Of a stretch of 64,000 nucleotides of DNA, positions 19,504 to 37,367 are shown piece after piece. The position numbers were made by a program, and so were the translations under genes. Each line of letters opens with the position of its first letter. The stretch's first letter is position 1. Where the stretch lies: positions 62,001-126,000 of the forward strand of contig JAJJXM010000024.1 of NCBI GenBank assembly GCA_024516155.1, in the 5' to 3' direction. The notes beneath the pieces were generated by a model. That model did no database searches, was not told the DNA's origin, and saw only the letters and a program-made list of their open reading frames with translations. The stretch is from Pyronema omphalodes (Eukaryota; Ascomycota; Pezizomycetes; Pezizales; Pyronemataceae).

Positions 19504-19508
19504 CACAT
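19504..19508. repeat. Target site duplication CACAT, left copy
   Basis: The five bases CACAT immediately before the left LTR recur directly after the right LTR at 28398-28402. This marks one integration event. Confidence 0.85.
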
Positions 19509-20862
19509 TGTGAACCTGGCTATTGAGGCGTTCAATAGAGAGGCTTATTCGATCAGTCGTTCTTCGTTTGAAAGGTATTCAACAAATAGGTTTCCCAAGA
19601 AGCTAGGAAGTAACTAATCGATCACAGGCCGAATAAACTTAAGGGTCTCTCTCGAGGTAACTGGTGTAGATAGGTGTTGTCGTAACAAGAGATCAGGTTG
19701 CTGATCCTGGAGGAGACGGTGGGAAGACTTAGGGTCTTTTATAGACTTTCGTCTACAAGTTCGCCCAGACTTCCCAAGGGAACCAACTTCCAAACTAAGC
19801 TTAGGAGATAAGACGTGAGTCAATTCTGTGACAAATCTGCCGATGGCTCGCATCATGCTGGTGGCGCAATTATATTAATTGCTCACTTGCATGATGACCT
19901 CGTGTCAGATTAATCCTTGACATTCCTTGCCGTGCTACCACACCTTCCAATCAGGTATTGGGGTTAAGCGCCTAGTGGAGGGTTACTCCACTTGAGCGCA
20001 TAATGCAATGACTCCTCTGATAATGACATGTGAGTCATATATCCTATGAGTCGTCTTGATCATAGATCTCCCTAGAGAATCTCGATTGCGAGTGAAGGAA
20101 TCTGACATCATAAGGCAGACTATGCCTTACCGGAGCGCACTGCCCCGTCACATTCCTGTGTGATGTCATACAGCCCCACCTGCGCGCACTTGCGCGCAGC
20201 CACACCCTGGTGTGTACGCAAACGCCATCTTATCTTGCAGTTGGTAGTCATTGGCCTAAGGTCGCGTCATATCAGTTCCGTCCAACAGTTTCCCTGAGTG
20301 GTGTTCCTTGCTGCAGAACGTCGTCTCATGCTGATGCAATCTTGACCCCTGTCCTGCGCTCCACTCCTGTTGGCTGACTAGACTCTGCCTTCTTCCTTGG
20401 CCGACTATCCGTCCAACTCAGACCTCGGATGATCCTATTCGCCTGCCTTGCATGCTCCTGAGAATTCCCTTCTCTTGCAAGCCCTCTGGTAGTCGCACTT
20501 GGAGGAACACAACCTCAAGTATAAGGAGGTGTCCCTTCGCCGCCGTCTTCTGTTCTCCATCAGCGTCGTCTGTAGTTTTCTCATGGGTAAGTCGACACCC
20601 ATGAGGTAAGTTGATACTCGTTCCCATCCATCTGTGATCCTCCCAAACTGACAGAGAATAACAGGTAGCGACGCCTCGGGCCGGGATCCTCGTGAGGTCC
20701 TTTCGGAAAGTCACGAATCACGTGACGTGGCTAGCTGGAGCTCCTCAGGGGGTTCCGGCCCGGGATACTAACCTTATTATTCATTCTCCTGTCGAGTTTG
20801 CCATGTTCTCATAATGTTATACATGTTACCTATTCTATACTCACACAATATAGGGTGTGACA
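19509..20862 (-). repeat. 3' LTR of the chromovirus (left copy)
   Basis: This matches 27044-28397 at a constant offset of 7,535 with no indels. In element orientation it starts TGTCACACC and ends GGTTCACA. Small frames inside it (98 and 80 codons, duplicated in the other LTR) look incidental. Confidence 0.97.
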
Positions 20863-20874
20863 CCACCTCCCCCC
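20863..20874 (-). other. Polypurine tract
   Basis: In element orientation GGGGGGAGGTGG directly precedes the 3' LTR start TGTCACACC. This is the expected position and composition for the plus-strand primer of an LTR retrotransposon. Confidence 0.9.
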
Positions 20875-21033
20875 TGTTCAAGCTTCGTCCCGAAGCAAGT
20901 AGCTTATCATTCTGTGATCGCACCTCGCCGCAGCCAAGTGACTTAGTGATCATATATGGATGTAGTCCTCCAGCCCCTACATCCTACTACCAACTCGACC
21001 TAATGAAAACCTCGTGGGGAAAAACATTAAGCC

Positions 21034-24000
21034 TTAATCCTTGAGTCGGTAGTCCCTCGGAGAATCAGGGTACTTGAGATGAAACTCTCGTAACTTCTCC
21101 TGACCTCCTACTGAAAAGTTGTCGAATGGTTCTGCCGTCCAGTCTTTTTTGTTAGGCCAACCTAGCCATTTAACAAGGTATAATACGCGATTGCCAGATT
21201 TGTAGCTGCTCATGATTTCATCGATATCATATTCCTCGCTTCCCTCAACGTCGTCTGCTTCCCGTAAAATTTTGTTTGTATCAGGTGGAGCCCGAGTTCC
21301 TGCTCTAAAGGGCTCAAGTAGAGAGGTATGGAAGACGTTGTGTATCTTCCATTTCCGTGGGAGCGTAAGTCGAACTGCTGTTGGGGGGATGACTTTTTCG
21401 ACTTGGAAGGGACCATGTAGTTTATGATCCAACTTCCTTGATGGGCGTCTGGTTCTTATGTTGCGTCCATCTAACATAACCAAGTCTCCTACTTGGTATT
21501 CTGGTGCCTCCTGTCGTTTCTGGTCTGCATATTTTTTCATTCGTTCTTGTGTTTTCTGAAGGGTTGATTTGGCTCCTTCGTGAATGGTATGCATCCAGTG
21601 GGCGTAGGCTTTGCTGGCCGGGTTGCGCACAGCAGTTGCCGAAGGGTTGCTCGTGTTAGGGAAGAACCCATAGTTGGCGTAAAAGGGTGATAGTCCAGTT
21701 GCGCTTGTGACTGAGTTATTGTATGCGAACTCAGCCATGGGTAAGAGATCAGCCCAGTCGTCCATTTCGTGGTTAACAAAAGAGCGGAGGTAAGCTTCGA
21801 TTGTTTGGTTGAGCCGTTCCGTTTGTCCGTCTGTTTGTGGGTGGAATGCTGTTGACATTCTTGGTTTAATTCCTAATGTTCCAAGAAATGCTTTCCAGGT
21901 GGTGCTTGTGAACCTGGAGTCTCGATCCGACACTATGTCCTTGGGTAAGCCATGCAACTTCCAAATTTCCTTTGCGAATATTCTGGCAAGGTCTGCAGTT
22001 GTCTTGCCGTCTTTCTGTAAGGGAATGAAGTGCGCCATTTTAGTAAATCGATCAACTATAACCCATAGTTGATCACACCCATTAGATTCCGGAAGGTCGG
22101 TAATAAAATCCATAGCAATAGATTGCCATGGGGCATATGTTAATTCCAAAGGTTGCAACATCCCATACTTAAGGTGCCTAGCCGTTTTGTCCTTCTGACA
22201 TTCCAAACAGCTCTGTATATATTCAATAATATTTTCATCCATCTTAGGCCACCAAAAGTTTCTCCTTATTAATTCAATTGTTTTATCCTGACCGAAGTGA
22301 CCTGCAATTTTTGAGTCGTGCTCCGATTCCAGGACCATGTTGACCAAATCCTTTGGTACCCATAACTTCTCTTTCCGATAGATTATGCCATCTTCTATCG
22401 TTAGTGGATCTTTTATTTTCTTTGCTGCTTTTTTATAGTTTTCGTCCAGTTCTCCAGCCTCTTTTACCATCTTTAAAAATTCACTAGACCATTTGACAGA
22501 AGGAATAGAATTAAGCCGAGCTGAGGAAACAATGAATGACGTTCCTTCTCCTCCACTGCTGATTGCTGAAATTGAAGCAAAATGTTCTTTGTGAAGGATA
22601 GTCGTAATCGGCTGATCCTCACCTCCCCCCTTTTCAGGGCGTAACTCCGGACGCCTTGACAAAGCATCAGGCTTTCCATTCTTACTTCCAGGTCTGTAAA
22701 AAATCTTGAAGTCAATACCAGCAAGTTCTTGGGCCCACCTTGCTTGGCGACGATTGAGTACTTTAGTTGTGGTGAAGTACTCTAAATTCTGATGGTCGCT
22801 GAACACTTGAACTGTATGCATTGCTCCTTCTAGGTATCTTCTCCATATCTTAAATGAATCCACAATAGCCAAAAGCTCCTTATCATGGATTTCGTAATTG
22901 ATCTCAGCTGGAGTGAATTTCCTAGAATGGAAAGCAATGGGATGCAGCTTTCCGTCCTCTCCTTTCTGAGAAAGGACTGCGCCTAAGGCAAAGTCAGAAG
23001 CATCAGTCTCAACAATGCAAACCTTTTTAGGATCAAAGTGACCCAATATTGGTGCCTTCGTAAACCGCTGCTTTAACTCATCAAATGCCAATTCCATGGC
23101 AACAGTCCATTCCCACTTCTTCGGATCGCCCTTGGTTGATTCAGTAAGAGGACGACAAATCCTTGAAAAGTCCTTTATGAATCGGCGATAGAAGTTTGCA
23201 AATCCAAGAAAGCCCTGTGTCTCTTTCAAGGATTTAGGAGGTTCCCAAACCAGGACGGTTTCCACTTTGTCCTTTGCCATCTCAATTCCCTTTTCGCTTA
23301 TGATGTATCCCAAAAATTCCACTTTGTTTGTCCCCCAAACACATTTCTCCGGAGATATCACCAGCCCATTTTCTTCCAGTCTTTTTAAGACTTCCTTAAC
23401 CAATTTATCATGTTCCTCCTCCGTTTCCGCGTAAATCAGAACATCATCAATATAAGCAATTACGCCTTGATCCAACATGTCTCTAAAGATATGATTCATC
23501 ATATCTTGGAATGTGGCCGGTGCATTGCTTAATCCGAAGGGCATGACCAAAAATTCATAAAGCCCATATCTGCATCTGAAGGCTGTTTTCCATTCATCGC
23601 CTTCTTTAATCCTTATCAAGTGATATCCGTTCTTCAAGTCCATTTTCGTGAAGAACTTAGCTCCTCTTACTCTGTCTTGTAATTCAGACATAAGAGGGAG
23701 GGGGTAGCGATTTGCTATTGTTATTTTGTTGATCCCCCTGTAATCAACACAGAGCCTTAAACCTCGCCCATGGGGTTTTGGCACAAAGAGAATTGGTGCT
23801 GCGGCAGGAGATTTAGATGGTCGAATCTTGCCTGTCCTTAGCATCTCTTTTAGCCATTCTCTCAGAGTTTCCAGCTCGACTTCATTGAGCGCATAGACTG
23901 GTCCCCAAGGAGGAGTTTCCCCTTCCTTCAAGTCTATGGCGTGGTCGTAGGGCTTGTGTTCTGGAAGCTTGTCGGCGGCTTCCTTTGTCATTATGTTAAT

Positions 24001-24744
24001 CCACTTACGGAATTTCTCAGGGACTTGTTGAAGTGCCTCTGATAATTCCTCCTTAGTGGCAACAGCTGAAATATGGCCTATTACTGAGGCCTCAGGATGG
24101 TCGAGTACACGGCGGTCGACCTTGAGTGAAAATGTACTGGCCTGAGCCTTAGTACAATGTTCGATGCAACGTGTAGTTGTGAAGGAGATGTTATTGCTGT
24201 CTCCCCACATGTTGCAAGGCTGATGTTTGGCCATCCACCAATAAGGGAGGATGACATCGCAGTCGCTGTCAAGAGGGGCGACTTCGAAGGCTTCGGCTGC
24301 AAAGTGTTGTTTGTGTTGCAGCATAAAAGGTACTGTGAAGAATTCTCCAGCTCCAGCAACTACCTCATTATTGAAGTTGCGTATTTGGAGAGGCTGGTCT
24401 CTCTTCACAGTAGGAATTTTGTAAGTTTGGACAAAACCTTTGTCCAGTAAAGCTGAGGTGGAGCCTGTATCAAGTAGGACTCGCACCGTTCGAAATTTGT
24501 TCTTTGACCAATTCAACACCATGTTGATTATCGGCCTTTTTCCGTGATAAGGTGGAACCACAGCTTCCATTTTTGTTTCTTTGGAAGAGGTTCCTTTGTC
24601 GGTTCGTCGAAATTTTGTCTTGGTCGACTCCAAGCTGTCCGATATTTTCCTTTTTGTCCCTGAACAAATTATTTTTCCTGCGTCAGATATACATTCCTCC
24701 TCCTCAGGTGACGCAACCCTAGAGGATCTTAAAAATCCGACTCC
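21034..24744 (-). CDS. pol: pol polyprotein of chromovirus (PR-RT-RH-IN-chromodomain)
   Basis: The frame is open from 24744, overlaps the gag stop by 16 bases in the -1 frame, and runs to a stop at 21034. Numbering here starts at the TTG codon at 24633, giving about 1,200 residues. Domains in order are an aspartic protease with LLDTGSTSALL (about 53-63), a reverse transcriptase with VIAYIDDVLIY (YIDD about 394-397) and an RNase H with VETDASDFALGAVLSQ. Next come an integrase HHCC zinc finger (HFGQDK... CLECQ), a DDE core with MDFITDLP, SDRDSRF and TERLNQ, and a C-terminal chromodomain (YLVKWLGWPNKKDWTAEP). The chromodomain places it among chromoviruses and suggests targeting to chromatin marks. 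There is no independent ATG, so it is most likely made as a Gag-Pol fusion. Confidence 0.96.
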   Translation of the reverse strand, partial: GVGFLRSSRVASPEEEECISDAGKIICSGTKRKISDSLESTKTKFRRTDKGTSSKETKMEAVVPPYHGKRPIINMVLNWSKNKFRTVRVLLDTGSTSALLDKGFVQTYKIPTVKRDQPLQIRNFNNEVVAGAGEFFTVPFMLQHKQHFAAEAFEVAPLDSDCDVILPYWWMAKHQPCNMWGDSNNISFTTTRCIEHCTKAQASTFSLKVDRRVLDHPEASVIGHISAVATKEELSEALQQVPEKFRKWINIMTKEAADKLPEHKPYDHAIDLKEGETPPWGPVYALNEVELETLREWLKEMLRTGKIRPSKSPAAAPILFVPKPHGRGLRLCVDYRGINKITIANRYPLPLMSELQDRVRGAKFFTKMDLKNGYHLIRIKEGDEWKTAFRCRYGLYEFLVMPFGLSNAPATFQDMMNHIFRDMLDQGVIAYIDDVLIYAETEEEHDKLVKEVLKRLEENGLVISPEKCVWGTNKVEFLGYIISEKGIEMAKDKVETVLVWEPPKSLKETQGFLGFANFYRRFIKDFSRICRPLTESTKGDPKKWEWTVAMELAFDELKQRFTKAPILGHFDPKKVCIVETDASDFALGAVLSQKGEDGKLHPIAFHSRKFTPAEINYEIHDKELLAIVDSFKIWRRYLEGAMHTVQVFSDHQNLEYFTTTKVLNRRQARWAQELAGIDFKIFYRPGSKNGKPDALSRRPELRPEKGGGEDQPITTILHKEHFASISAISSGGEGTSFIVSSARLNSIPSVKWSSEFLKMVKEAGELDENYKKAAKKIKDPLTIEDGIIYRKEKLWVPKDLVNMVLESEHDSKIAGHFGQDKTIELIRRNFWWPKMDENIIEYIQSCLECQKDKTARHLKYGMLQPLELTYAPWQSIAMDFITDLPESNGCDQLWVIVDRFTKMAHFIPLQKDGKTTADLARIFAKEIWKLHGLPKDIVSDRDSRFTSTTWKAFLGTLGIKPRMSTAFHPQTDGQTERLNQTIEAYLRSFVNHEMDDWADLLPMAEFAYNNSVTSATGLSPFYANYGFFPNTSNPSATAVRNPASKAYAHWMHTIHEGAKSTLQKTQERMKKYADQKRQEAPEYQVGDLVMLDGRNIRTRRPSRKLDHKLHGPFQVEKVIPPTAVRLTLPRKWKIHNVFHTSLLEPFRAGTRAPPDTNKILREADDVEGSEEYDIDEIMSSYKSGNRVLYLVKWLGWPNKKDWTAEPFDNFSVGGQEKLREFHLKYPDSPRDYRLKD
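24729..24744 (-). promoter_or_regulatory. Gag/pol overlap and probable -1 frameshift site
   Basis: In element orientation gag ends GAT TTT TAA and pol continues one base earlier as GGA TTT TTA AGA. A tRNA on TTT can slip back one base and still pair with TTT, with the gag stop in the A site. This is a simple slippery run (T TTT TAA), not a classic X XXY YYZ heptamer. Confidence 0.6.
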
Positions 24745-26915
24745 TCATCATTCTGCTCAATTTCCCAAATCCTGGGCTGAGCATCTTCCATTATGTCATC
24801 CTCATCCTGTCGCACTGCTGCGGTCTTTGTCTTTTTATTTTCTTTGGGCTTCTCCTGCCCTTTGTTTCCATCATCGTCATCGTCTCTCTTCCTCTTGCCA
24901 GAGGAAGCAACCTTTCCTTCGCCAGAGAGCTCTGTTCCTCCAACTGTCTTCTTAGCGTAACAATCAAACATTTTGTGCCCAGATCGTCCGCATCTCCAAC
25001 AGTCAGCCTTATCCTTTTTATGTTTGTCGATTTCGCTCTGAGGAACATTGTTCAGAGCCTCCCTTCCCGATGCAAAAATGGACTTCTTGTCCTTCTTTCC
25101 AGAGAAACCCTTTTTCTCCTTCTTGTCCTTGAATTTATCTTTGTGCTGCACCTCCTTAGGGCGCACAGTTTCCTTATGTTTTCCTTTATCCTTATGGCGG
25201 TCCTCCCGCACTTCCAAAGTCTTTTTCTTATGACCCTTCAATTCCTCTTCCAAATTCTCCACAACATGAGCAGCTTCCTTAACTGCATCAATCATTCCTT
25301 CATCATCAGTTGGGATTCCCCCAAATCTTTGGTATACCATTTTCTTAATAGCAGGCGTCATAGCCTCCCAAATGACATTCCTGTACATCGGACCGATTGC
25401 TCCCACACGCATATTTAGGTCCTCTAACTTTGTAATATAGTCGTCAATATCTCCATCATACTGGAGTTCCGTAATTCTCTTAACGTCCTTCTGGGCTTCC
25501 CGCTTATCCTCAAACCTAGTTTCAATAGCGCTTGAGAAAGCTTGCCATGTATCCTTAAGTCCTGATCTCTGAATGGACTTTCGCCGTTCCTGGTGCCAAC
25601 TGAGAGCTTTGTGAGTAAGCAAGCTCCCAACCCATTTCACCTGGTCGTCCTCATCTGGAAACGCCTTGGCATATGTCGCAATGTAATCTTGAACAGACAT
25701 CCACCAAGCCCTAAACAAATTCTTGTCCTTCCCAGAAAAATATTGTGGAGCCTTCATCTCAGGCATTTTGGGTCTCCTTGGTTCATTGACCCCAGATTGC
25801 TGTAACTTATTAACGAGTGATTCCAAGAATGCCTCCGTGGCATTCTTTGCTTCAGGCTTTCTTTGTTGAGCCTTTTCTTTGCGCTCCTGGCGCTTCCTTT
25901 CCAAAGCCTTTCTAATATATGAGTCATCTGAATCCTCGCTGTCTGTAGGATCAGATGGTGGTGGTGGTGGTGGAAGTCCTCCTCCTGGTGGTTTGCTTCC
26001 CCTTCCACCGTTTCTGCCGCCATTTTGAACAGATCCCGCCACTGATGGAGGCAATGGGACCTCGGGTGCTTTGCCAAGAGAGGGTGGTCTGGGAGTCATC
26101 TCCTCATGCATAGCCTCGGTTAGAGACTTAGCATCGAAATGCTCCTTCTTCTGGATCTTCGACATAACAAGGTCAATGACCTTGTTTACCAATTCCAATT
26201 TTTCTTCCTCCCTCTGTTCATAATAGTCTAGTAGGCGCTGCTGATGCATCTCTTCAGCCCTAGACAGAGCTGCGATGCGCCTATCCCTTTGCTTATCGTC
26301 CTCCTTCCTAATGGCGTCCTGTGTATTTTTCTCGATTGCCCATTCCTCAATTTCTTTATTGATTTCGAGTTGCCTCTGGGCAAAGGCCTCAAGGATGGCA
26401 TTTGTCGTTTCAATGCCCTGGTTAAGTCTATCTGCAGCTGCCTGCTGAGCTGCCTCCTTTGTTTGTGCATCCGTGGCAAGATTGCCAATGGTCCTCCAAA
26501 CTTGTCCAGCAAAGTCGTTGCTGGCCTGAACGAGTCGCGTCACGGTTTGCAGGTTGATCTCCTGGTCCAGGTCCCCTTTCTTTGCCAAGGTATCATAGGC
26601 CTTTTGCATACCCTGGGCCATTTCCTGATACAACCCTTTCATCCGCTGTAACTCTTCATTCATAGCAGCCCCAGATCCGACTGCCTCAACCAACCTCTTG
26701 ATATCCTCCTCATTGGCGTTCATTCTTTCCATCATTAGAATGACCCAGTCAGGGACTTCTCCGAGATGGAGGGTAGTTCCATGGTGGACTCTAGGAGTTC
26801 CAACCGAAGTAACTTCCTCCCAAGAGCGAGGGCGGGTGATGCTAACGGTATCGCCCATTGGAGCGTCAAGTCCATCGTCGTGACGGGAAGTGCCGGTGAT
26901 TCTTCGAGCGGCCAT
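24729..26915 (-). CDS. gag: gag polyprotein of chromovirus
   Basis: ATG at 26915 opens a 728-codon frame. The N-terminal third is helical and charged. A Pro/Gly-rich linker with PPPPPP follows (about 310-325), then a retrotransposon-gag capsid-like block including APQYFSGKDKNLFRAWWMSV. A Lys-rich region leads to one CCHC zinc knuckle, CWRCGRSGHKMFDC (C639, C642, H647, C652), which fits CX2CX4HX4C. It would package element RNA and build the particle. The C-terminus is acidic and ends DEESDF at a TAA that overlaps pol. Confidence 0.94.
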   Translation of the reverse strand: MAARRITGTSRHDDGLDAPMGDTVSITRPRSWEEVTSVGTPRVHHGTTLHLGEVPDWVILMMERMNANEEDIKRLVEAVGSGAAMNEELQRMKGLYQEMAQGMQKAYDTLAKKGDLDQEINLQTVTRLVQASNDFAGQVWRTIGNLATDAQTKEAAQQAAADRLNQGIETTNAILEAFAQRQLEINKEIEEWAIEKNTQDAIRKEDDKQRDRRIAALSRAEEMHQQRLLDYYEQREEEKLELVNKVIDLVMSKIQKKEHFDAKSLTEAMHEEMTPRPPSLGKAPEVPLPPSVAGSVQNGGRNGGRGSKPPGGGLPPPPPPSDPTDSEDSDDSYIRKALERKRQERKEKAQQRKPEAKNATEAFLESLVNKLQQSGVNEPRRPKMPEMKAPQYFSGKDKNLFRAWWMSVQDYIATYAKAFPDEDDQVKWVGSLLTHKALSWHQERRKSIQRSGLKDTWQAFSSAIETRFEDKREAQKDVKRITELQYDGDIDDYITKLEDLNMRVGAIGPMYRNVIWEAMTPAIKKMVYQRFGGIPTDDEGMIDAVKEAAHVVENLEEELKGHKKKTLEVREDRHKDKGKHKETVRPKEVQHKDKFKDKKEKKGFSGKKDKKSIFASGREALNNVPQSEIDKHKKDKADCWRCGRSGHKMFDCYAKKTVGGTELSGEGKVASSGKRKRDDDDDGNKGQEKPKENKKTKTAAVRQDEDDIMEDAQPRIWEIEQNDEESDF

Positions 26916-27029
26916 TGTTGGTTGAATGTTTTTCTTTGTAGTTTTTTGTATGGAGGATCGTTTGGTGTTGTCTTGCCCTAGAAGAGGGTCTTCCGTATAC
27001 GTGTCGAAAAGTAAACTTAGTAGCTTGAG

Positions 27030-27041
27030 CCTTAAGTTTAT
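27030..27041 (-). other. Primer-binding site, self-complementary to the LTR
   Basis: Two bases inside the 5' LTR, the element RNA reads ATAAACTTAAGG. The LTR contains CCTTAAGTTTAT (plus-strand positions 27168-27179, and 19633-19644 in the other LTR), perfectly complementary over 12 nt. I see no match to a tRNA 3' end (no TGG at the start). This fits the self-priming mechanism known for Tf1-like elements, in which the RNA 5' end folds back to prime. Confidence 0.65.
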
Positions 27042-27043
27042 AG

Positions 27044-28397
27044 TGTGAACCTGGCTATTGAGGCGTTCAATAGAGAGGCTTATTCGATCAGTCGTTCTTC
27101 GTTTGAAAGGTATTCAACAAATAGGTTTCCCAAGAAGCTAGGAAGTAACTAATCGATCACAGGCCGAATAAACTTAAGGGTCTCTCTCGAGGTAACTGGT
27201 GTAGATAGGTGTTGTCGTAACAAGAGATCAGGTTGCTGATCCTGGAGGAGACGGTGGGAAGACTTAGGGTCTTTTATAGACTTTCGTCTACAAGTTCGCC
27301 CAGACTTCCCAAGGGAACCAACTTCCAAACTAAGCTTAGGAGATAAGACGTGAGTCAATTCTGTGACAAATCTGCCGATGGCTCGCATCATGCTGGTGGC
27401 GCAATTATATTAATTGCTCACTTGCATGATGACCTCGTGTCAGATTAATCCTTGACATTCCTTGCCGTGCTACCACACCTTCCAATCAGGTATTGGGGTT
27501 AAGCGCCTAGTGGAGGGTTACTCCACTTGAGCGCATAATGCAATGACTCCTCTGATAATGACATGTGAGTCATATATCCTATGAGTCGTCTTGATCATAG
27601 ATCTCCCTAGAGAATCTCGATTGCGAGTGAAGGAATCTGACATCATAAGGCAGACTATGCCTTACCGGAGCGCACTGCCCCGTCACATTCCTGTGTGATG
27701 TCATACAGCCCCACCTGCGCGCACTTGCGCGCAGCCACACCCTGGTGTGTACGCAAACGCCATCTTATCTTGCAGTTGGTAGTCATTGGCCTAAGGTCGC
27801 GTCATATCAGTTCCGTCCAACAGTTTCCCTGAGTGGTGTTCCTTGCTGCAGAACGTCGTCTCATGCTGATGCAATCTTGACCCCTGTCCTGCGCTCCACT
27901 CCTGTTGGCTGACTAGACTCTGCCTTCTTCCTTGGCCGACTATCCGTCCAACTCAGACCTCGGATGATCCTATTCGCCTGCCTTGCATGCTCCTGAGAAT
28001 TCCCTTCTCTTGCAAGCCCTCTGGTAGTCGCACTTGGAGGAACACAACCTCAAGTATAAGGAGGTGTCCCTTCGCCGCCGTCTTCTGTTCTCCATCAGCG
28101 TCGTCTGTAGTTTTCTCATGGGTAAGTCGACACCCATGAGGTAAGTTGATACTCGTTCCCATCCATCTGTGATCCTCCCAAACTGACAGAGAATAACAGG
28201 TAGCGACGCCTCGGGCCGGGATCCTCGTGAGGTCCTTTCGGAAAGTCACGAATCACGTGACGTGGCTAGCTGGAGCTCCTCAGGGGGTTCCGGCCCGGGA
28301 TACTAACCTTATTATTCATTCTCCTGTCGAGTTTGCCATGTTCTCATAATGTTATACATGTTACCTATTCTATACTCACACAATATAGGGTGTGACA
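27044..28397 (-). repeat. 5' LTR of the chromovirus (right copy)
   Basis: It appears identical to the left LTR and ends GGTTCACA next to the primer-binding site in element orientation. It contains a TATA-like box at 27271-27280. The predicted RNA start is near 27180. Confidence 0.97.
27271..27280 (-). promoter_or_regulatory. TATA box of the 5' LTR
   Basis: In element orientation the LTR reads TCTATAAAAG. It lies about 90-100 bases upstream of the 12-nt block that would be the RNA 5' end under self-priming, within the range used by fungal promoters. Confidence 0.55.
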
Positions 28398-28402
28398 CAC
28401 AT
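28398..28402. repeat. Target site duplication CACAT, right copy
   Basis: This CACAT directly follows the end of the 5' LTR and matches 19504-19508. Confidence 0.85.
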
Positions 28403-28842: not shown

Positions 28843-29405
28843 GGTCTCTATGGTCTCTATGGTCTCTATGGTCTCTATGGTCTCTATGGTCTATGGTCTA
28901 TGGTCTATGGTCTATGGTCTCTAAGGTCTCTATGGTCTATGGTCTATGGTCTATGGTCTATGGTCTATGGTCTATGGTCTATGGTCTATGGTCTATGGTC
29001 TATGGTCTATGGTCTATGGTCTATGGTCTATGGTCTATGGTCTATGGTCTATGGTCTATGGTCTATGGTCTATGGTCTATGGTCTATGGTCTATGGTCTA
29101 TGGTCTATGGTCTATGGTCTATGGTCTATGGTCTATGGTCTATGGTCTATGGTCTATGGTCTATGGTCTATGGTCTATGGTCTATGGTCTATGGTCTATG
29201 GTCTATGGTCTATGGTCTATGGTCTATGGTCTATGGTCTATGGTCTATGGTCTATGGTCTATGGTCTATGGTCTATGGTCTATGGTCTATGGTCTATGGT
29301 CTATGGTCTATGGTCTATGGTCTATGGTCTCTATGATCTCTATGGTCTCTATGGTCTCTATAGTCTATGGTCTCTATGATCTCTATGGTCTCTATGGTCT
29401 CTATA
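28843..29405 (+). repeat. 7-bp satellite (GGTCTAT)n flanked by 9-bp variants
   Basis: A core of about 56 near-perfect GGTCTAT copies (about 28930-29325) is flanked on both sides by 9-bp GGTCTCTAT or GATCTCTAT units. Three 7-mers make 21 nt, so all three plus-strand frames stay open and give spurious GLWSMVY repeats. The perfection of the core suggests recent expansion. Confidence 0.97.
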
Positions 29406-30944: not shown

Positions 30945-33900
30945 ATGGCCCCTGCGTATAGAACAGACCTACCGATGACGACAACCCAACCATCCACCCT
31001 CCCTCATCCGCCGCACCAGCCACAGCCTCAACAGTCCCAGACCCAGTCATCTCAGCAACAGCTCTTCGATTTTCAACCTGCAACGGAAGATGATGAGCTT
31101 GAGCAACATCGTGGTGGTGATGGTGGATTAAGCGCTCCTCCTCCTCCGCCGTCGCTACTTACTTCCAGGAATCCTCCTGCTGTGCCTAGACCTGTTGCTG
31201 CTACGAGACCTGCTGATATGGAGACACGGGATGCAAGGGATGATCGTGTCCCACGAGATCGTGATCCCAATGGACGCGATGCTAGTAGAGTGAGAGATGA
31301 TCGTGCTGCGAGGGATACTAGAGATGAGCATGTTGGGCGTGATACTAGTAGGGTTAGAGATGCGAGAGAACAACAGAATCTTCAGCAGAATCTTCAGCAA
31401 CAGCCGCAGTATCATCACGGTCATGAAGAACACGAATATGATCATGAGCAACAACACGATGATGATGATGAAAGAGGACGGTATGAAGACCTGGATTATG
31501 ATGTGGCTGAGGATGACCGGAGGGGTTACACAAATATGCCGGAAAGGTATGGGGAATTTCAGCGAGAGGCGGATCAGGAAAAGGAATACAGGAAGCAGAT
31601 GAAGACTACTTTTGATTTGGAAAGTCAGAGGCATATTGAAGTTGAGAGTCCACAGATGAGTCCGGGTGTTGCATCGTACACGAAGGTACAGGGGAAGCAG
31701 AGAGAGGGGGAATCGAACTTTTCCAGACAGACTGAAGCGACGCAGCTTCCGAGACAAATTCGTTCGTACGATGATACCGCGATTTACGAACAGCACCAAC
31801 AACATAGCAAGCTACCGGTGTTGGATCGGAATGCTCACTCGTTTGATGCACCTGTTGGTGTCGCTGGTCGTTCCCCGCAGCGGGGTTTCTCGCAGCCTGC
31901 TAGTGATAGCCATCTTCATGGAGCTTATATCGAGCAGCAACAGCCTCGCAACGGAAATTCGCAGGATATCTCTTCTATGAATAAACAGGAATCGCCGATA
32001 AATAAACTGATAAATCCAGTCTCTCCGGGTCGCAATTTCGATGTTATTCGCGACGCGGTCAGCCAATCGCAGCAACACCAAGCTCCGAACGTGTCGATCT
32101 CGGCGCTAGGCGGTGGCCAGCTGTCAGGCAGCTTCCAGCGTCACCAGCAGGAACAGCAACAGCAACAGCAATCGCAATCGCAACAACTCTCCTCTTCTCA
32201 CAACTCCAACAGTCATCTAGGTGGCTCACCGAGTAATATGCCTCCGCCTCAGCATATCACCCAGGGCTATAATTCCCAGCAATATGGGAATCCCGAGCCG
32301 CTACGATTCCCGCCAAATCTTTCAACTTCCCCACAGGCCGCTCCGAACCAAACCCCCGCTTTTCCCAACCAGCAGCCGTTTCCCCCGCCAGGTGGCCCCG
32401 TCGGTTTACACGCTCAGTTGTACTCGAATCACCGCGAAGCTCAGCCAGCTCAACATGTAGAGGGAGCCCCAGAACCAACGTTTCCTAGAGGATGGCAAGC
32501 TGATGTTTCATCCGAGGATCACCAGCAGTCTACGAATCCGTTTTCGCCGGATATCCATAATCAGCAGCCATACGGACAGCCTCCTCCGCCGCCGAAACAT
32601 CAACTATCAGGTTCCCCGGGAAGCTTCAAAGGAGATATCAAGAGTCTACAGGAGGGAAGTGTAGGTGAGGGCAGGTCATACAGTCAGAGAAGCAATGGGT
32701 CAAATACCAGATCTCCAGATGTAGTATCCGACAAGCCCAGTGCTATTGGTCGACCCACCCCGCCATCGCAACCAGCATCTCAGCAGAGTCACCATTCGCA
32801 AGCTACACATGTCTCTCAACAGACTCATGTCTCCGTCCAGAGCCATCAGAGTCATCAGTCGCATCGCGGTTCTAACTATGGATACCAAGATACTCCTCAG
32901 TACTCGAATTCCTCTCCACAATCGAATTTGTCCGGCTACTCTAATGCCCCGCCGCCTCCAATTCCTGCAAAGGAGCCATTGGAAATGAACCGTGAACGTG
33001 AGCGTGAGCGTGAGCAACAGCAACAGGAGCAGCAGCAAAGGGCTGAACGAGAGCAGAGAGCTGCAGCATTCAGCTACCAGCAGCATCTTCAAAGACATCT
33101 TGCTAATGCTTCAACCTCACCTCGTGGTATGACAGGATACGGTCCACCCCCGCCGATCGGTTCATCTAAACGAGACACCGCGCCTCGAGTTACAAGTCCG
33201 CTTTCGGTCCGTAAAAATGAACCTTCGAGCTTCAGACCCCCGATGCAGCAACAGCAGCAGCAACCAACTCAAAGGCAACCGCCGATACCGCAAAGAGAAG
33301 AGGAGGTTTCCCCGTCGGAGCTACAGGAGCGAAAGAGTTCTTTTGGCCAGGGTTCTAATTCCAGTAACAGTCCTAAAAGAGCTAGACAACAACAGTCGCA
33401 AGCCACCCATCAGCAGCAGCAGCAGCAACAGCAGCAGCAGGGAAGCCCCCAGGAATCGACGTCGCAGCGTGGCTCGCAGTATGGTTCCCCGCACGGCTCG
33501 CAGACGGGATCTACCGGCCCGCGTCAGCCTTACTCGCCGCCGAGAAAGCACCAGCAGATGTCGGAGCCGCAGTCGCAGCAGCAGCAGCAGCAGCAACAAC
33601 AATCGTCGCCTCAACAGCGATATCAGCAACAGCAGCAGCAATCGTCGCCTCAACAGCGATACCAGCCGCAGCAGCAGCAGCAGCAGCAGGATTCATCTCC
33701 TCAGCAGCCTTATCAACAGCAGCAGCAGCAGCAGGATTCATCGCCTCAACAGCGGTACCAGCAGCAGCAACTCTCCTCTGCCCCATCTCCCCCTCCTCGC
33801 ATGGAATCCCCTCCGCGTCACGGCGGCCAGAATATGCCCCAGCCCCAGCCTCAGCGGTTCATGATGCCTCCGCTTCTGACACCGGTGAGTGACGGCCCTG

Positions 33901-36900
33901 CACCACCACCTGCACCATCGTGCCCCCCGCCAGATACTCCCAGCAGCGAAATGAATGGACAACGTGGACCGCCCGGCGGATACCTTCGCAGTCTTGCCCT
34001 TGGTGCCAATGCGGGAGGTTTAAAGAATTTCATGGGCGTTCCGCTAATGAGCGGCCAGCGTGTTGGCGACACGCGAGAACATCAGGAAGGCGGCGCGGGT
34101 ACTCCTACGGGATTTTTAAGCCGCAACCCCAAGCCCGCCGCCACCTCGTCATCATCCTCCGACAGCGCCTCTCGCAAACCTACCGAAGAGCAGACTACTC
34201 GCGGACCACCTCCTATTGGGGTAAGGCCCCGCGGCTCTAGTGGTAATACTGCCCTTACTAGCAAGGTGGAGCGTCCCGGTAGTGCCGAGGGTGATGACCC
34301 AATTCCCCCTGAGTACCGTCCAAGAGCTACTGATAAGAAGGACCAACCTACAATCCCGCCGAGACGTACCGAGAAAGAAAGGGAAAGGGAAAGGGACCGG
34401 GAAAGCTCATCTTCGTCGGGAGTTGGTTTGGGTCTGGAAGGTCATTCTCCCCAGCAACAAATGCAGAGCACCGTCAACCCCGCACAACAGATGCAGCAGG
34501 TCCGGAAGCCTCCTGTCGTGGCAAGAACTTCATTGTCGCAATCAATGTCCAACCGCTCGGTCGATAAGTTTGGCAAGTCACCCCCACAACCTGGTTCTCA
34601 GCAGAGAAGTCCGGCGGAGGTGGGACTCGGAGGATATTTATACCCCAAGCCGATTCCCCCACCATCTGCGGGTAACTCTGGAACGTCAAATCCGAGATTC
34701 CCCGGGGGTCACATCATCTCCCCTCTCGCTAATGCTACCAGTCCTCCGGGAGGCATCGGCACTAGAGAAAGTATCATGCGCGGACAGTGGGTGGATGATA
34801 CTGCCGCCGTCTCTGGCCCTGCGCCTATGAGGAAGCCGGAACCACCTCAGCATACCATCCCGCCTCAGGTTTTTGGTTATGAGAATGGTCAGTTTTCGCA
34901 GCCGTTCAATAAGGCTATGTCTGGACACACCACCAGTCCTCCGGAAGCGAATATTCCGGATGATCAGGATGAAAGTGCCACTAATCCTAGCGAGAGCCCA
35001 ACTCCAGATATTCCCAGTATTCCTCTGAATACCCAACATCATGATCATTCGAAGAGGATTAGGAGTGAGGAACAGCTTTTCGAGACGTTTAGTGATCTTT
35101 TCCCCAGTTTGCCGCCGACTCATATTAATGCACTACTCAACTTTGCGCTGCAATTGACGGAGGATGCGGTGATTGCGGATAAGGCGGAGAATGTGAGATT
35201 AACCAAATATGATGCGCCTGGAACGAAGGAACAGTTGAATATCCTTGGAGAGAAACGGTTACGGTTGTTCCGGGACTGGGCTAGTCTTGAGGAAGTTGCA
35301 CGGAATCGCCAGGTACAGTTGATGAAGGCACCCCCGCCAGAACCTAAGCCGCCGGTGCCTTTCAAGAATGTTCCCTCTGGATATGATGGAATGCAGCCCT
35401 TACCCCCTCCACCGAGTCTAGTGGCGTTGGATGAGTTTGGTGGCCAGCATATGCACCATAAAAATCAACATCACCATCACCACCAGCAGCAGCAGCAGCC
35501 TCATCGTCAGCATTATGCAGAGATGCCTGAGATTCCTCATGACCCGCTCTACAGAGATCACGACACTCCTTCTCCAACTCCCACCGTTGATCAGATTAAA
35601 GCCGCTCCAAAGGTTGATCTCGAACTCCAGATGCCTCGTCCCATGCCATCCGTACCAGCTATCAGAATCGACCCTAGCACCCGTCGCAAGTTTGAAGACG
35701 ATGCCTCTACCGTTGCCTCAATGTCTCGCGCTGAGAACCGTATGGAAGGTCTACCCGGTGGAACTCCTTACCCCTTCCCTCTGCCTAAGCCGCAGCAGAA
35801 CCATTTTGAAGAAAACCGGCCAGTTGATACTAAGGAACTCCAAGACGTGATCCAATCTTTCACTAAGGCTAAGAACAAGGATGATGGAGAGATCATGGCT
35901 GATATTCCTCCGTTTTTGCATATGGCTTATGCGGCTCTTGATAAGGTCACGAATGTCGCACCGGTGGATCAGTATCTTGATAATGCACGCAAATTGCTAG
36001 ATCAGAAGACCAAGAATATGACATCGGTTTATCACGCTAATTCTATGAAGAGGGCGCAGTTGAATGCTCAGCAGACGAATGCGGCTTACTCCTCTGGAAG
36101 ATATACATTTGCGGACATTGAGAGAATGAGAGAGCAATTCACACAGGAGGAAGCGAAGAATAAGATGGAGCTGGAGGCTGAGATTTATAGTATGTTTGAA
36201 AATGAGTACGTGGAAGTGGCGTATAAGGAGGTCAAGAGTCAGCTTGAAGAACTCGGAGGAAGATGGTATGAGGAGGTTAAGAATTGGTTATTCACCGTTG
36301 CTGGAGCGGATACCCGGGGCACTGGAACCGCTTTGGAATATCACCTTATTCTGGAAGCTATCGATTTACTCAACAAGCTGCACGTTACAATGGAAGAGCA
36401 TGAACATATCCTTCAGTCTCTTGTTACTGAACGTAACGCACGCTACCTCAAAATCTCTATCGACCCCCTTCTCGAAAATGGACAGACTGTCAGAGCTGCA
36501 GAAGCGGAACGTCGCTACTGGATTGATGAACAGGAACGACAAATCCGCAGTAAAATCGAAAGAGGAAAACGAGTAGCGGAACACAGAGCCTGCGTCGACA
36601 GAGTCGGAGAACAAGTCATAGAAGGTCTCCGTAAACGTTACGGCGAGGTTCTAGAAGCCGTCTGGGGTGTTGTTTGGCAGTTCCCGCCGTCTATCCAACC
36701 TACTCTTTTCCGGAAATTCTTTGACGAAAACACTATTCCCATCAATGAGGCAACTTCTCCTACTTCCTACACTGTTGCTAAGGAAAACGTCGAGGCCCTT
36801 GCAGAAGCTGTTACTACTCTTGGCGAGATTGTTGAGCTTACAAAGTTGGCTATGCATTTCCGATCCTCCCCGGCGGTAAGAGTCGTCGAGGCTCAGCTTG

Positions 36901-37367
36901 CTATACAGGTTGCCGAGGAACATCAACACGCCAATGGTCTCACAGCACCAGCAGCTACCGCAGCCGCTTGCGCCGCAGCCGTTAAAGCCCGTCTCCCACA
37001 AGCATTACGCAAGGTTGCCGAGGAGTGCAGAGAGATGACCGATAACGTCGCCGGGGGTCTCGTTGAAGTTCTCGAGCGGTTAAGAATTGGCGTCGAAGAA
37101 GTAGCCTTGACTGGCGGTAGAGTAGAAGTCGGGGGTATGGGAATGGCGGGAATGAGAATGTGGGAAGATACCCGTAGTGTAGTGGGAGATTGGGAAATGG
37201 GATCGGGAGAATCTTGGGTTGTGGGTACGGGATATGGAAATGCAAATGCCTATCAGGGTTATCCGAGTATGCAGAATATGGGAATGCCCCAACAGCAACA
37301 GCAGCAGCAGCAGCAGCAACAGCAACAGGGTTATGGCGGTAATAGAGTGAGTGGTGGTTTTTCTTGA
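30945..37367 (+). CDS. Large Gln-rich low-complexity protein, 2,140 aa, unknown function
   Basis: One uninterrupted frame of 6.4 kb runs from the ATG after CAAGAAACTG. Roughly the first 1,350 residues are disordered-looking. They are rich in Gln, Pro, Ser and Arg-Asp repeats, with several poly-Q runs (about residues 822-832, 880-890, 905-915) and SSPQQRYQQQQ repeats. Two blocks of normal composition follow. One (about 1365-1480) includes EEQLFETFSDLFPSLPPTHI. The other (about 1625-2065) contains a charged, likely coiled-coil helix around MREQFTQEEAKNKMELEAEI and several further helices. A final poly-Q lies near 2115-2128. There is no signal peptide or membrane segment. I do not recognise the family. 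The layout suggests a scaffold or transcription/RNA-granule type protein, but that is inference only. Confidence 0.9.
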   Translation: MAPAYRTDLPMTTTQPSTLPHPPHQPQPQQSQTQSSQQQLFDFQPATEDDELEQHRGGDGGLSAPPPPPSLLTSRNPPAVPRPVAATRPADMETRDARDDRVPRDRDPNGRDASRVRDDRAARDTRDEHVGRDTSRVRDAREQQNLQQNLQQQPQYHHGHEEHEYDHEQQHDDDDERGRYEDLDYDVAEDDRRGYTNMPERYGEFQREADQEKEYRKQMKTTFDLESQRHIEVESPQMSPGVASYTKVQGKQREGESNFSRQTEATQLPRQIRSYDDTAIYEQHQQHSKLPVLDRNAHSFDAPVGVAGRSPQRGFSQPASDSHLHGAYIEQQQPRNGNSQDISSMNKQESPINKLINPVSPGRNFDVIRDAVSQSQQHQAPNVSISALGGGQLSGSFQRHQQEQQQQQQSQSQQLSSSHNSNSHLGGSPSNMPPPQHITQGYNSQQYGNPEPLRFPPNLSTSPQAAPNQTPAFPNQQPFPPPGGPVGLHAQLYSNHREAQPAQHVEGAPEPTFPRGWQADVSSEDHQQSTNPFSPDIHNQQPYGQPPPPPKHQLSGSPGSFKGDIKSLQEGSVGEGRSYSQRSNGSNTRSPDVVSDKPSAIGRPTPPSQPASQQSHHSQATHVSQQTHVSVQSHQSHQSHRGSNYGYQDTPQYSNSSPQSNLSGYSNAPPPPIPAKEPLEMNREREREREQQQQEQQQRAEREQRAAAFSYQQHLQRHLANASTSPRGMTGYGPPPPIGSSKRDTAPRVTSPLSVRKNEPSSFRPPMQQQQQQPTQRQPPIPQREEEVSPSELQERKSSFGQGSNSSNSPKRARQQQSQATHQQQQQQQQQQGSPQESTSQRGSQYGSPHGSQTGSTGPRQPYSPPRKHQQMSEPQSQQQQQQQQQSSPQQRYQQQQQQSSPQQRYQPQQQQQQQDSSPQQPYQQQQQQQDSSPQQRYQQQQLSSAPSPPPRMESPPRHGGQNMPQPQPQRFMMPPLLTPVSDGPAPPPAPSCPPPDTPSSEMNGQRGPPGGYLRSLALGANAGGLKNFMGVPLMSGQRVGDTREHQEGGAGTPTGFLSRNPKPAATSSSSSDSASRKPTEEQTTRGPPPIGVRPRGSSGNTALTSKVERPGSAEGDDPIPPEYRPRATDKKDQPTIPPRRTEKERERERDRESSSSSGVGLGLEGHSPQQQMQSTVNPAQQMQQVRKPPVVARTSLSQSMSNRSVDKFGKSPPQPGSQQRSPAEVGLGGYLYPKPIPPPSAGNSGTSNPRFPGGHIISPLANATSPPGGIGTRESIMRGQWVDDTAAVSGPAPMRKPEPPQHTIPPQVFGYENGQFSQPFNKAMSGHTTSPPEANIPDDQDESATNPSESPTPDIPSIPLNTQHHDHSKRIRSEEQLFETFSDLFPSLPPTHINALLNFALQLTEDAVIADKAENVRLTKYDAPGTKEQLNILGEKRLRLFRDWASLEEVARNRQVQLMKAPPPEPKPPVPFKNVPSGYDGMQPLPPPPSLVALDEFGGQHMHHKNQHHHHHQQQQQPHRQHYAEMPEIPHDPLYRDHDTPSPTPTVDQIKAAPKVDLELQMPRPMPSVPAIRIDPSTRRKFEDDASTVASMSRAENRMEGLPGGTPYPFPLPKPQQNHFEENRPVDTKELQDVIQSFTKAKNKDDGEIMADIPPFLHMAYAALDKVTNVAPVDQYLDNARKLLDQKTKNMTSVYHANSMKRAQLNAQQTNAAYSSGRYTFADIERMREQFTQEEAKNKMELEAEIYSMFENEYVEVAYKEVKSQLEELGGRWYEEVKNWLFTVAGADTRGTGTALEYHLILEAIDLLNKLHVTMEEHEHILQSLVTERNARYLKISIDPLLENGQTVRAAEAERRYWIDEQERQIRSKIERGKRVAEHRACVDRVGEQVIEGLRKRYGEVLEAVWGVVWQFPPSIQPTLFRKFFDENTIPINEATSPTSYTVAKENVEALAEAVTTLGEIVELTKLAMHFRSSPAVRVVEAQLAIQVAEEHQHANGLTAPAATAAACAAAVKARLPQALRKVAEECREMTDNVAGGLVEVLERLRIGVEEVALTGGRVEVGGMGMAGMRMWEDTRSVVGDWEMGSGESWVVGTGYGNANAYQGYPSMQNMGMPQQQQQQQQQQQQQGYGGNRVSGGFS

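Follow-up and report, generated by a model that had tools for sequence, protein, structure and literature searches.

The 64,000-nt stretch of the Pyronema omphalodes genome analyzed here (contig JAJJXM010000024.1, positions 62,001 to 126,000; hereafter the window) carries on its minus strand, from 28397 to 19509, a long terminal repeat (LTR) retrotransposon in which both gag and pol are open. Self-priming of reverse transcription, as in Tf1, is very probably the best explanation for the arrangement seen at its 5' end. It is supported by a block within the LTR that is complementary to the primer binding site (PBS) and conserved among copies, by compensatory changes between related families, by the possibility of a three-duplex fold of the Tf1 type, and by searches in which no tRNA candidate was found. 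An earlier interpretation made from the letters alone (the sequence-only reading) had proposed this mechanism together with an RNA start near position 27180; the mechanism is supported, whereas that start is doubtful.

In the mechanism that we propose, the LTR block, CCUUAAGUUUAU in the genomic RNA, would fold onto the PBS, as complementarity, conservation and covariation suggest. By analogy with Tf1, RNase H would then cut the RNA just past the block, and the new 3' end would prime minus-strand synthesis into the unique 5' region (U5). The primer would in turn template the PBS of the next copy, keeping block and PBS in step. It would, somewhat more likely than not, be an internal stretch of the RNA, lying behind a leader of about 64 nt.

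A perfect complement of the primer binding site within the LTR

27030..27041, minus strand: primer binding site ATAAACTTAAGG, 2 nt past the LTR
27168..27179, minus strand: candidate self-primer block CCTTAAGTTTAT, pairing with the PBS without a mismatch; 17 of 20 sampled copies have it whole

The dinucleotide CT separates the end of the 5' LTR (27044) from the PBS ATAAACTTAAGG (plus-strand positions 27041-27030). The block CCTTAAGTTTAT, at 27179-27168, starts 136 nt before the LTR end and pairs with the PBS at 12 of 12 bases, as the sequence-only reading had observed; a PBS that can pair with some 10-12 nt of the 5' LTR is one of the marks of the self-primed Tf1/sushi group. A 12-nt complement to the PBS (offsets 0-3) was reached by none of 2,000 dinucleotide-shuffled LTRs, in which the best run averaged 5.7 nt and never exceeded 10, and the same-strand control run in the window LTR was 7 nt as against the 12 complementary ones. 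Throughout the assembly searched (60.8 Mb, 232 contigs) the 12-mer occurs 620 times, versus 15 for the reversed pattern.

A chance match aided by the CTTAAG palindrome is, on these figures, a negligible prospect. The palindrome is real and pairs with itself, and had been thought to weaken the match slightly, but it accounts neither for the 12 paired bases nor for the covarying relatives described below, which themselves speak against chance. Moreover, seven further families of the genome have 10-nt matches, and CTTAAG is present in none of their PBSs.

Conservation of the block among the copies of this family supports the pairing. When 2 mismatches at most were allowed, the PBS pattern was found at 209 places of the genome and at none in the reversed control. 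Twenty copies were chosen by their PBS alone among 100 of these places, all 100 having 0 mismatches; the block was complete in 17 of them, reduced to 10 nt in one and 9 nt in another, and missing from one (L073), which was left out of the comparisons of column identity and flanking duplexes. Mean column identity within the block was 0.99 (24 rows), while ten-column bins from 60 columns before to 70 after it ranged from 0.61 to 0.97; as identity is highest there, the block and the sequence just after it form the conserved part of this stretch. The distance from block start to LTR end varies between 135 and 190 nt across subfamilies. In seven other loci that were read (L032, L035, L036, L060, L061, L063, L064), no LTR end with the PBS of the targeted element was recognized.

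Covariation between families of the same genome

The comparison with relatives, including the reverse transcriptase (RT) identities and the RT tree, covers elements of this genome only. Twelve database relatives of the gag protein (53-68% identity) came without organism or DNA context, and the evidence from covariation is therefore confined to this genome; a scan of viral contigs found no relatives of pol.

The sister of the window family (family A) is family K, with 81% RT identity. Its PBS ATAAGTTTA and block TAAACTTAT pair over 10 nt, and two adjacent pairs are exchanged on both sides relative to the window element. The K-type PBS ATAAGTTTACTC was found at 23 of the 27 places returned by its pattern search. 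Among six K loci fetched together, five keep the block pairing over 9-10 nt, and a separately fetched one (L037) pairs over 10. A more distant clade (the E clade), with about 52% RT identity to the window element, includes families E, N, P, Q and D, in which the PBS TTGATTGCGT is accompanied by the block ACGCAATCAA. This pair emerged from a search for inverted repeats before the PBS was known, the LTR ends being placed later by comparison of LTR with LTR. Family M of this clade combines TAGATTGCGT with ACGCAATCTA, a compensatory change of one pair with respect to the E type. In each of these seven families (K and the E clade including M), between 1 and 9 of 2,000 shuffled LTRs attained the observed run of 10 nt.

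Twenty E-type places were examined among 100 listed of the 190 counted, a non-random choice that includes the one-mismatch PBS variants L101, L102 and L103 and three GATA-type ends; the 10-nt block is complete in 16, down to 9 nt in one and absent from three (L098, L101, L102). The last three were left out of the E-clade U5 alignment and stem test, and L101 may be a chance match to the PBS.

The sequence-only reading had named covariation in related elements as a check on the pairing, and PBS and block do change together between A, K, the E type and M. With its hundreds of copies and no fewer than four versions of PBS and block, this single genome offers a natural covariation experiment, and it supports the pairing.

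Two side observations concern these families. RT stretches of one M locus (L109) and one L locus (L110) contain 5 and 3 stops in 210 codons, yet the LTR copies of the M element are 99.5% alike; such elements could be recent yet broken, split by introns, or non-autonomous. In U5 of family E an intron-like stretch of about 36 nt, GTAAGTAC...TGACTAAC...CCTAG, is seen in L034, L065, L089, L090, L095, L100 and L103, slightly changed in L090 and L103.

Searches for a host primer

No TGG occurs among the 60 bases that follow the LTR, in agreement with the sequence-only reading, which had seen no tRNA-type PBS. A tRNA-like B box following the 11-nt primer end CTTAAGTTTAT was found at 0 places in the genome, and one following the 8-nt primer end AAGTTTAT at 9 places versus 8 in the control; these were pattern searches, and the full set of host tRNAs was not compared. 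An Rfam tRNA search scored 63 of 2,696 first-look candidates. On these counts a tRNA primer was rejected as a candidate; within the patterns searched, neither a PBS starting with TGG nor a match to a host tRNA or tRNA half came to light.

Half-tRNA primers are used by some copia elements (PMC6317226), which lends some plausibility to a scenario in which a host tRNA, tRNA half or small RNA primes synthesis, and the duplex of block and PBS regulates only access or packaging. Against it stand the missing TGG near the LTR, the lack of any tRNA-like excess in the pattern searches, and the joint change of PBS and LTR block between families, which a host primer does not predict. We regard this scenario as very unlikely.

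RNA folding and flanking duplexes

27157..27161, minus strand: candidate second duplex, LTR arm UGUGA, pairing with 27044-27048; conserved, no covariation
27044..27048, minus strand: candidate second duplex, U5-end arm UCACA
27135..27140, minus strand: candidate third duplex, LTR arm UAGCUU, pairing with 27021-27026; 6 bp, conserved, little variation
27021..27026, minus strand: candidate third duplex, post-PBS arm AAGCUA
27012..27019, minus strand: TAAGTTTA, competing 8-bp hairpin partner of the PBS

Thermodynamic folding, by a program that does not model the crossing third arm, gave the pairing of block and PBS in the window RNA a probability of 0.98, and this held for both assumed starts, one at the block and one 33 nt past the TATA box. 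The E clade has a stem between U5 and the post-PBS region of up to 14 bp, several pairs of which are changed on both sides. In 12 distinct rows, 150 of 168 cells are paired, compared with a shuffle mean of 126.8 and with 0 of 2,000 shuffles reaching this value. The stem position was the best fit for each row, so that the percentage paired is optimistic, though the shuffles used the same fits.

Several observations weigh against self-priming. Within the window family, one locus fetched for another reason (L031) has the U5 end and the PBS but other sequence at the position of the block, and the flanking duplexes are short (5 and 6 bp) and show no covariation. A hairpin of 8 bp between the PBS and the sequence that follows it (27012-27041) is a possible competitor. 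The downstream half of this hairpin is largely conserved in the window family, and the hairpin might alternate with the block pairing as a switch. The predicted probability of the block:PBS pairing is only 0.01 and 0.24 in a relative (L068), and 0.06 in an E-clade element (L092) with 60 nt of 3' context. In family K the match is the weakest of the seven families (9 of 2,000 shuffles), one locus (L047) has the PBS while the stretch read upstream of it lacks the block, and L037 carries, apparently by accident, another 10-nt run that lies outside the PBS proper. In family L the run is only 7 nt, reached by 208 of 2,000 shuffles and hence no better than chance; by eye it extends to 11 nt if a 1-nt bulge is allowed, which was not counted as support. 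Finally, some PBS changes are unmatched: L040 and L041 share one that leaves a G-U pair, with no change in the block, L042 has a changed PBS and an unchanged block, and the PBS of L039 is too diverged to pair and has no matching change in its block. We read these unmatched changes as decay after insertion.

RNA start and position of the primer

27271..27278, minus strand: TATAAAAG box (TATA), 99 nt upstream of the block; 99-102 nt in all 19 sampled copies that keep the block
27242..27245, minus strand: candidate initiator, A at 27243, 35 nt past the TATA start (putative RNA start)

The block had been placed 90-100 nt after a TATA box, and the first T of TATAAAAG indeed lies at 27278, 99 nt before it. 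The RNA start near 27180 that was proposed along with it is not supported. Among the 17 block-bearing copies of the E clade, 15 have a TATA box 33-40 nt ahead of the block start (in the other two no TATA was recognized), and all 17 blocks open with an A that follows a pyrimidine. Because both the spacing and this A fit a start site, the RNA of the E clade plausibly begins with the block, as that of Tf1 does. The block of the window family, by comparison, begins with CC after GAC or AAC in all 19 copies, with no pyrimidine-purine step. A start near 27180 is therefore doubtful: the E-clade rule points to about 27240 in the window, and an A is conserved at +35 from the TATA start, as part of a CCATCAT-like site, in 17 of the 19 sampled copies that have a TATA box (in the window the site is CCAGGAT). 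The initiator-like CA, with its A at 27243, is the better candidate. Given self-priming, we somewhat favor an RNA that begins nearer 27243 than at the block, with the primer internal behind its leader; this placement is based on spacing and assumes one start rule for both clades.

An arrangement exactly like that of Tf1, in which the RNA starts at the block (about 27180) and the primer is its 5' end, would imply that the TATA box at 27278 acts over roughly 100 nt or that another start signal is used. The constant TATA-to-block distance in the 19 copies fits such an arrangement, as does a weak TATCTA/TATTTA-like stretch that some copies have about 28-32 nt ahead of the block. This stretch is not conserved, however, and the shorter E-clade spacing, the CC at the block start and the even longer spacing in family K all argue in the other direction. 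We consider the exact Tf1 arrangement rather unlikely, its probability being partly shared with that of self-priming in general. A combination of two starts, with the one at about 27243 giving the protein mRNA and the one at the block giving the self-priming RNA, appears less likely still; PMC10085805 cites, for Tf2, a 2016 paper on regulation of retrotransposon activity by alternative transcription start sites.

In family K, a CATCATC lies 33-34 nt past the TATA start and the block only at 238-242 nt (six loci shown). The six K LTRs examined (L037, L043-L046, L048) also contain ACGCAATCA 45-46 nt past the TATA start, and TTGATTGC is absent from these six loci. The former equals the E-clade primer less its last base and is not paired by the PBS of K. 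We tentatively suggest that in the lineage of A and K the self-primer moved from the RNA 5' end to a place inside, at about 64 nt in the window family and about 200 nt in K. The RNA would then start about 35 nt past the TATA box, like that of the E clade, an internal cut would make a long capped primer, and the ACGCAATCA of K would look as if it were a remnant of the older E-clade arrangement.

The mechanism itself is already known, and the position of the primer may be a variant of it. No mention of an internal self-primer was found in the part of the self-priming literature that was covered, which does not prove its absence from print. If an internal primer is indeed used in one lineage, the rule that the primer is the RNA's own 5' end would not be general, raising the questions of how RNase H chooses an internal cut and of what becomes of the leader and the repeat (R) region at strand transfer.

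The element and its surroundings

27044..28397, minus strand: 5' LTR, 1354 bp, TG...CA, identical over its whole length to the 3' LTR
19509..20862, minus strand: 3' LTR
19504..19508: target site duplication CACAT, left copy
28398..28402: right copy of the CACAT duplication
24729..26915, minus strand: gag open reading frame (ORF), 728 aa, with Ty3_capsid and Retrotrans_gag matches, each under its cut-off
21034..24633, minus strand: pol ORF, 1199 aa, with RT, RNase H, integrase, Tf2-1-like SH3 and chromodomain
20863..20875, minus strand: polypurine tract adjoining the 3' LTR

By its predicted domains the element is a Ty3/gypsy (Metaviridae) chromovirus, as the Pfam order in pol is RT, RNase H, integrase, SH3_Tf2-1 and Chromo; with 24.4 bits (E 2.8e-5) the chromodomain match falls just short of its cut-off of 25.1. 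The best solved-structure match of pol is Ty3-G Gag-Pol (E 1.4e-148). Both 1,354-bp LTRs are identical and CACAT duplications flank the element, pointing to a recent insertion. Elsewhere in the window, a TCTATGG minisatellite of about 63 copies (28856-29373) lies some 460 bp outside the 5' LTR, and a 2,140-aa glutamine-rich ORF (30945-37367) has no Pfam match at E 0.001.

Comparison with known systems

Ty3 of Saccharomyces provides the best solved-structure match of pol and has, like the window element, a 5-bp target duplication. It uses a tRNA primer, whereas the PBS of the window element is not tRNA-like. The Skipper elements of Dictyostelium are chromoviruses too, and in most of them a TGG-type PBS is missing; they differ in having a polypyrimidine stretch at the PBS position and no complementary region in the LTR (PMC5006619). 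Self-priming was first demonstrated for Tf1 and later implicated in other elements (PMC4600332). Among Tf1/sushi elements it is said to be common (PMC7175516, PMC10085805). It has also been proposed for Tcn1 of Cryptococcus (PMC7175516), and a survey of plant elements predicts it for 12% of them (PMC6317226). The Tcn1 clade, which also includes moss and club-moss chromoviruses, thus provides a likeness outside the fission yeasts, although for spikemoss SM-Tcn1 evidence was found for neither tRNA priming nor self-priming (PMC2864245).

The closest known group is that of Tf1 and Tf2 of Schizosaccharomyces pombe, the Tf1/sushi chromoviruses, which also include Tj1, Tosmo1-3 and Tcry1. The window element seems to work like these, judging from shared features, namely a chromovirus pol with a Tf2-1-like SH3 domain, a TGG-less PBS right after the LTR and a complementary LTR block; the pol tree, as noted above, holds elements of this genome only. 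The possible flanking duplexes recall the pretzel fold of Tf1, one arm of which the E-clade U5 stem resembles (PMC10085805), although those of the window family are short and lack covariation. The primer of Tf1 is the RNA 5' end, whereas in the window element 99 nt separate the TATA box from the block, which probably lies some 64 nt inside the RNA.
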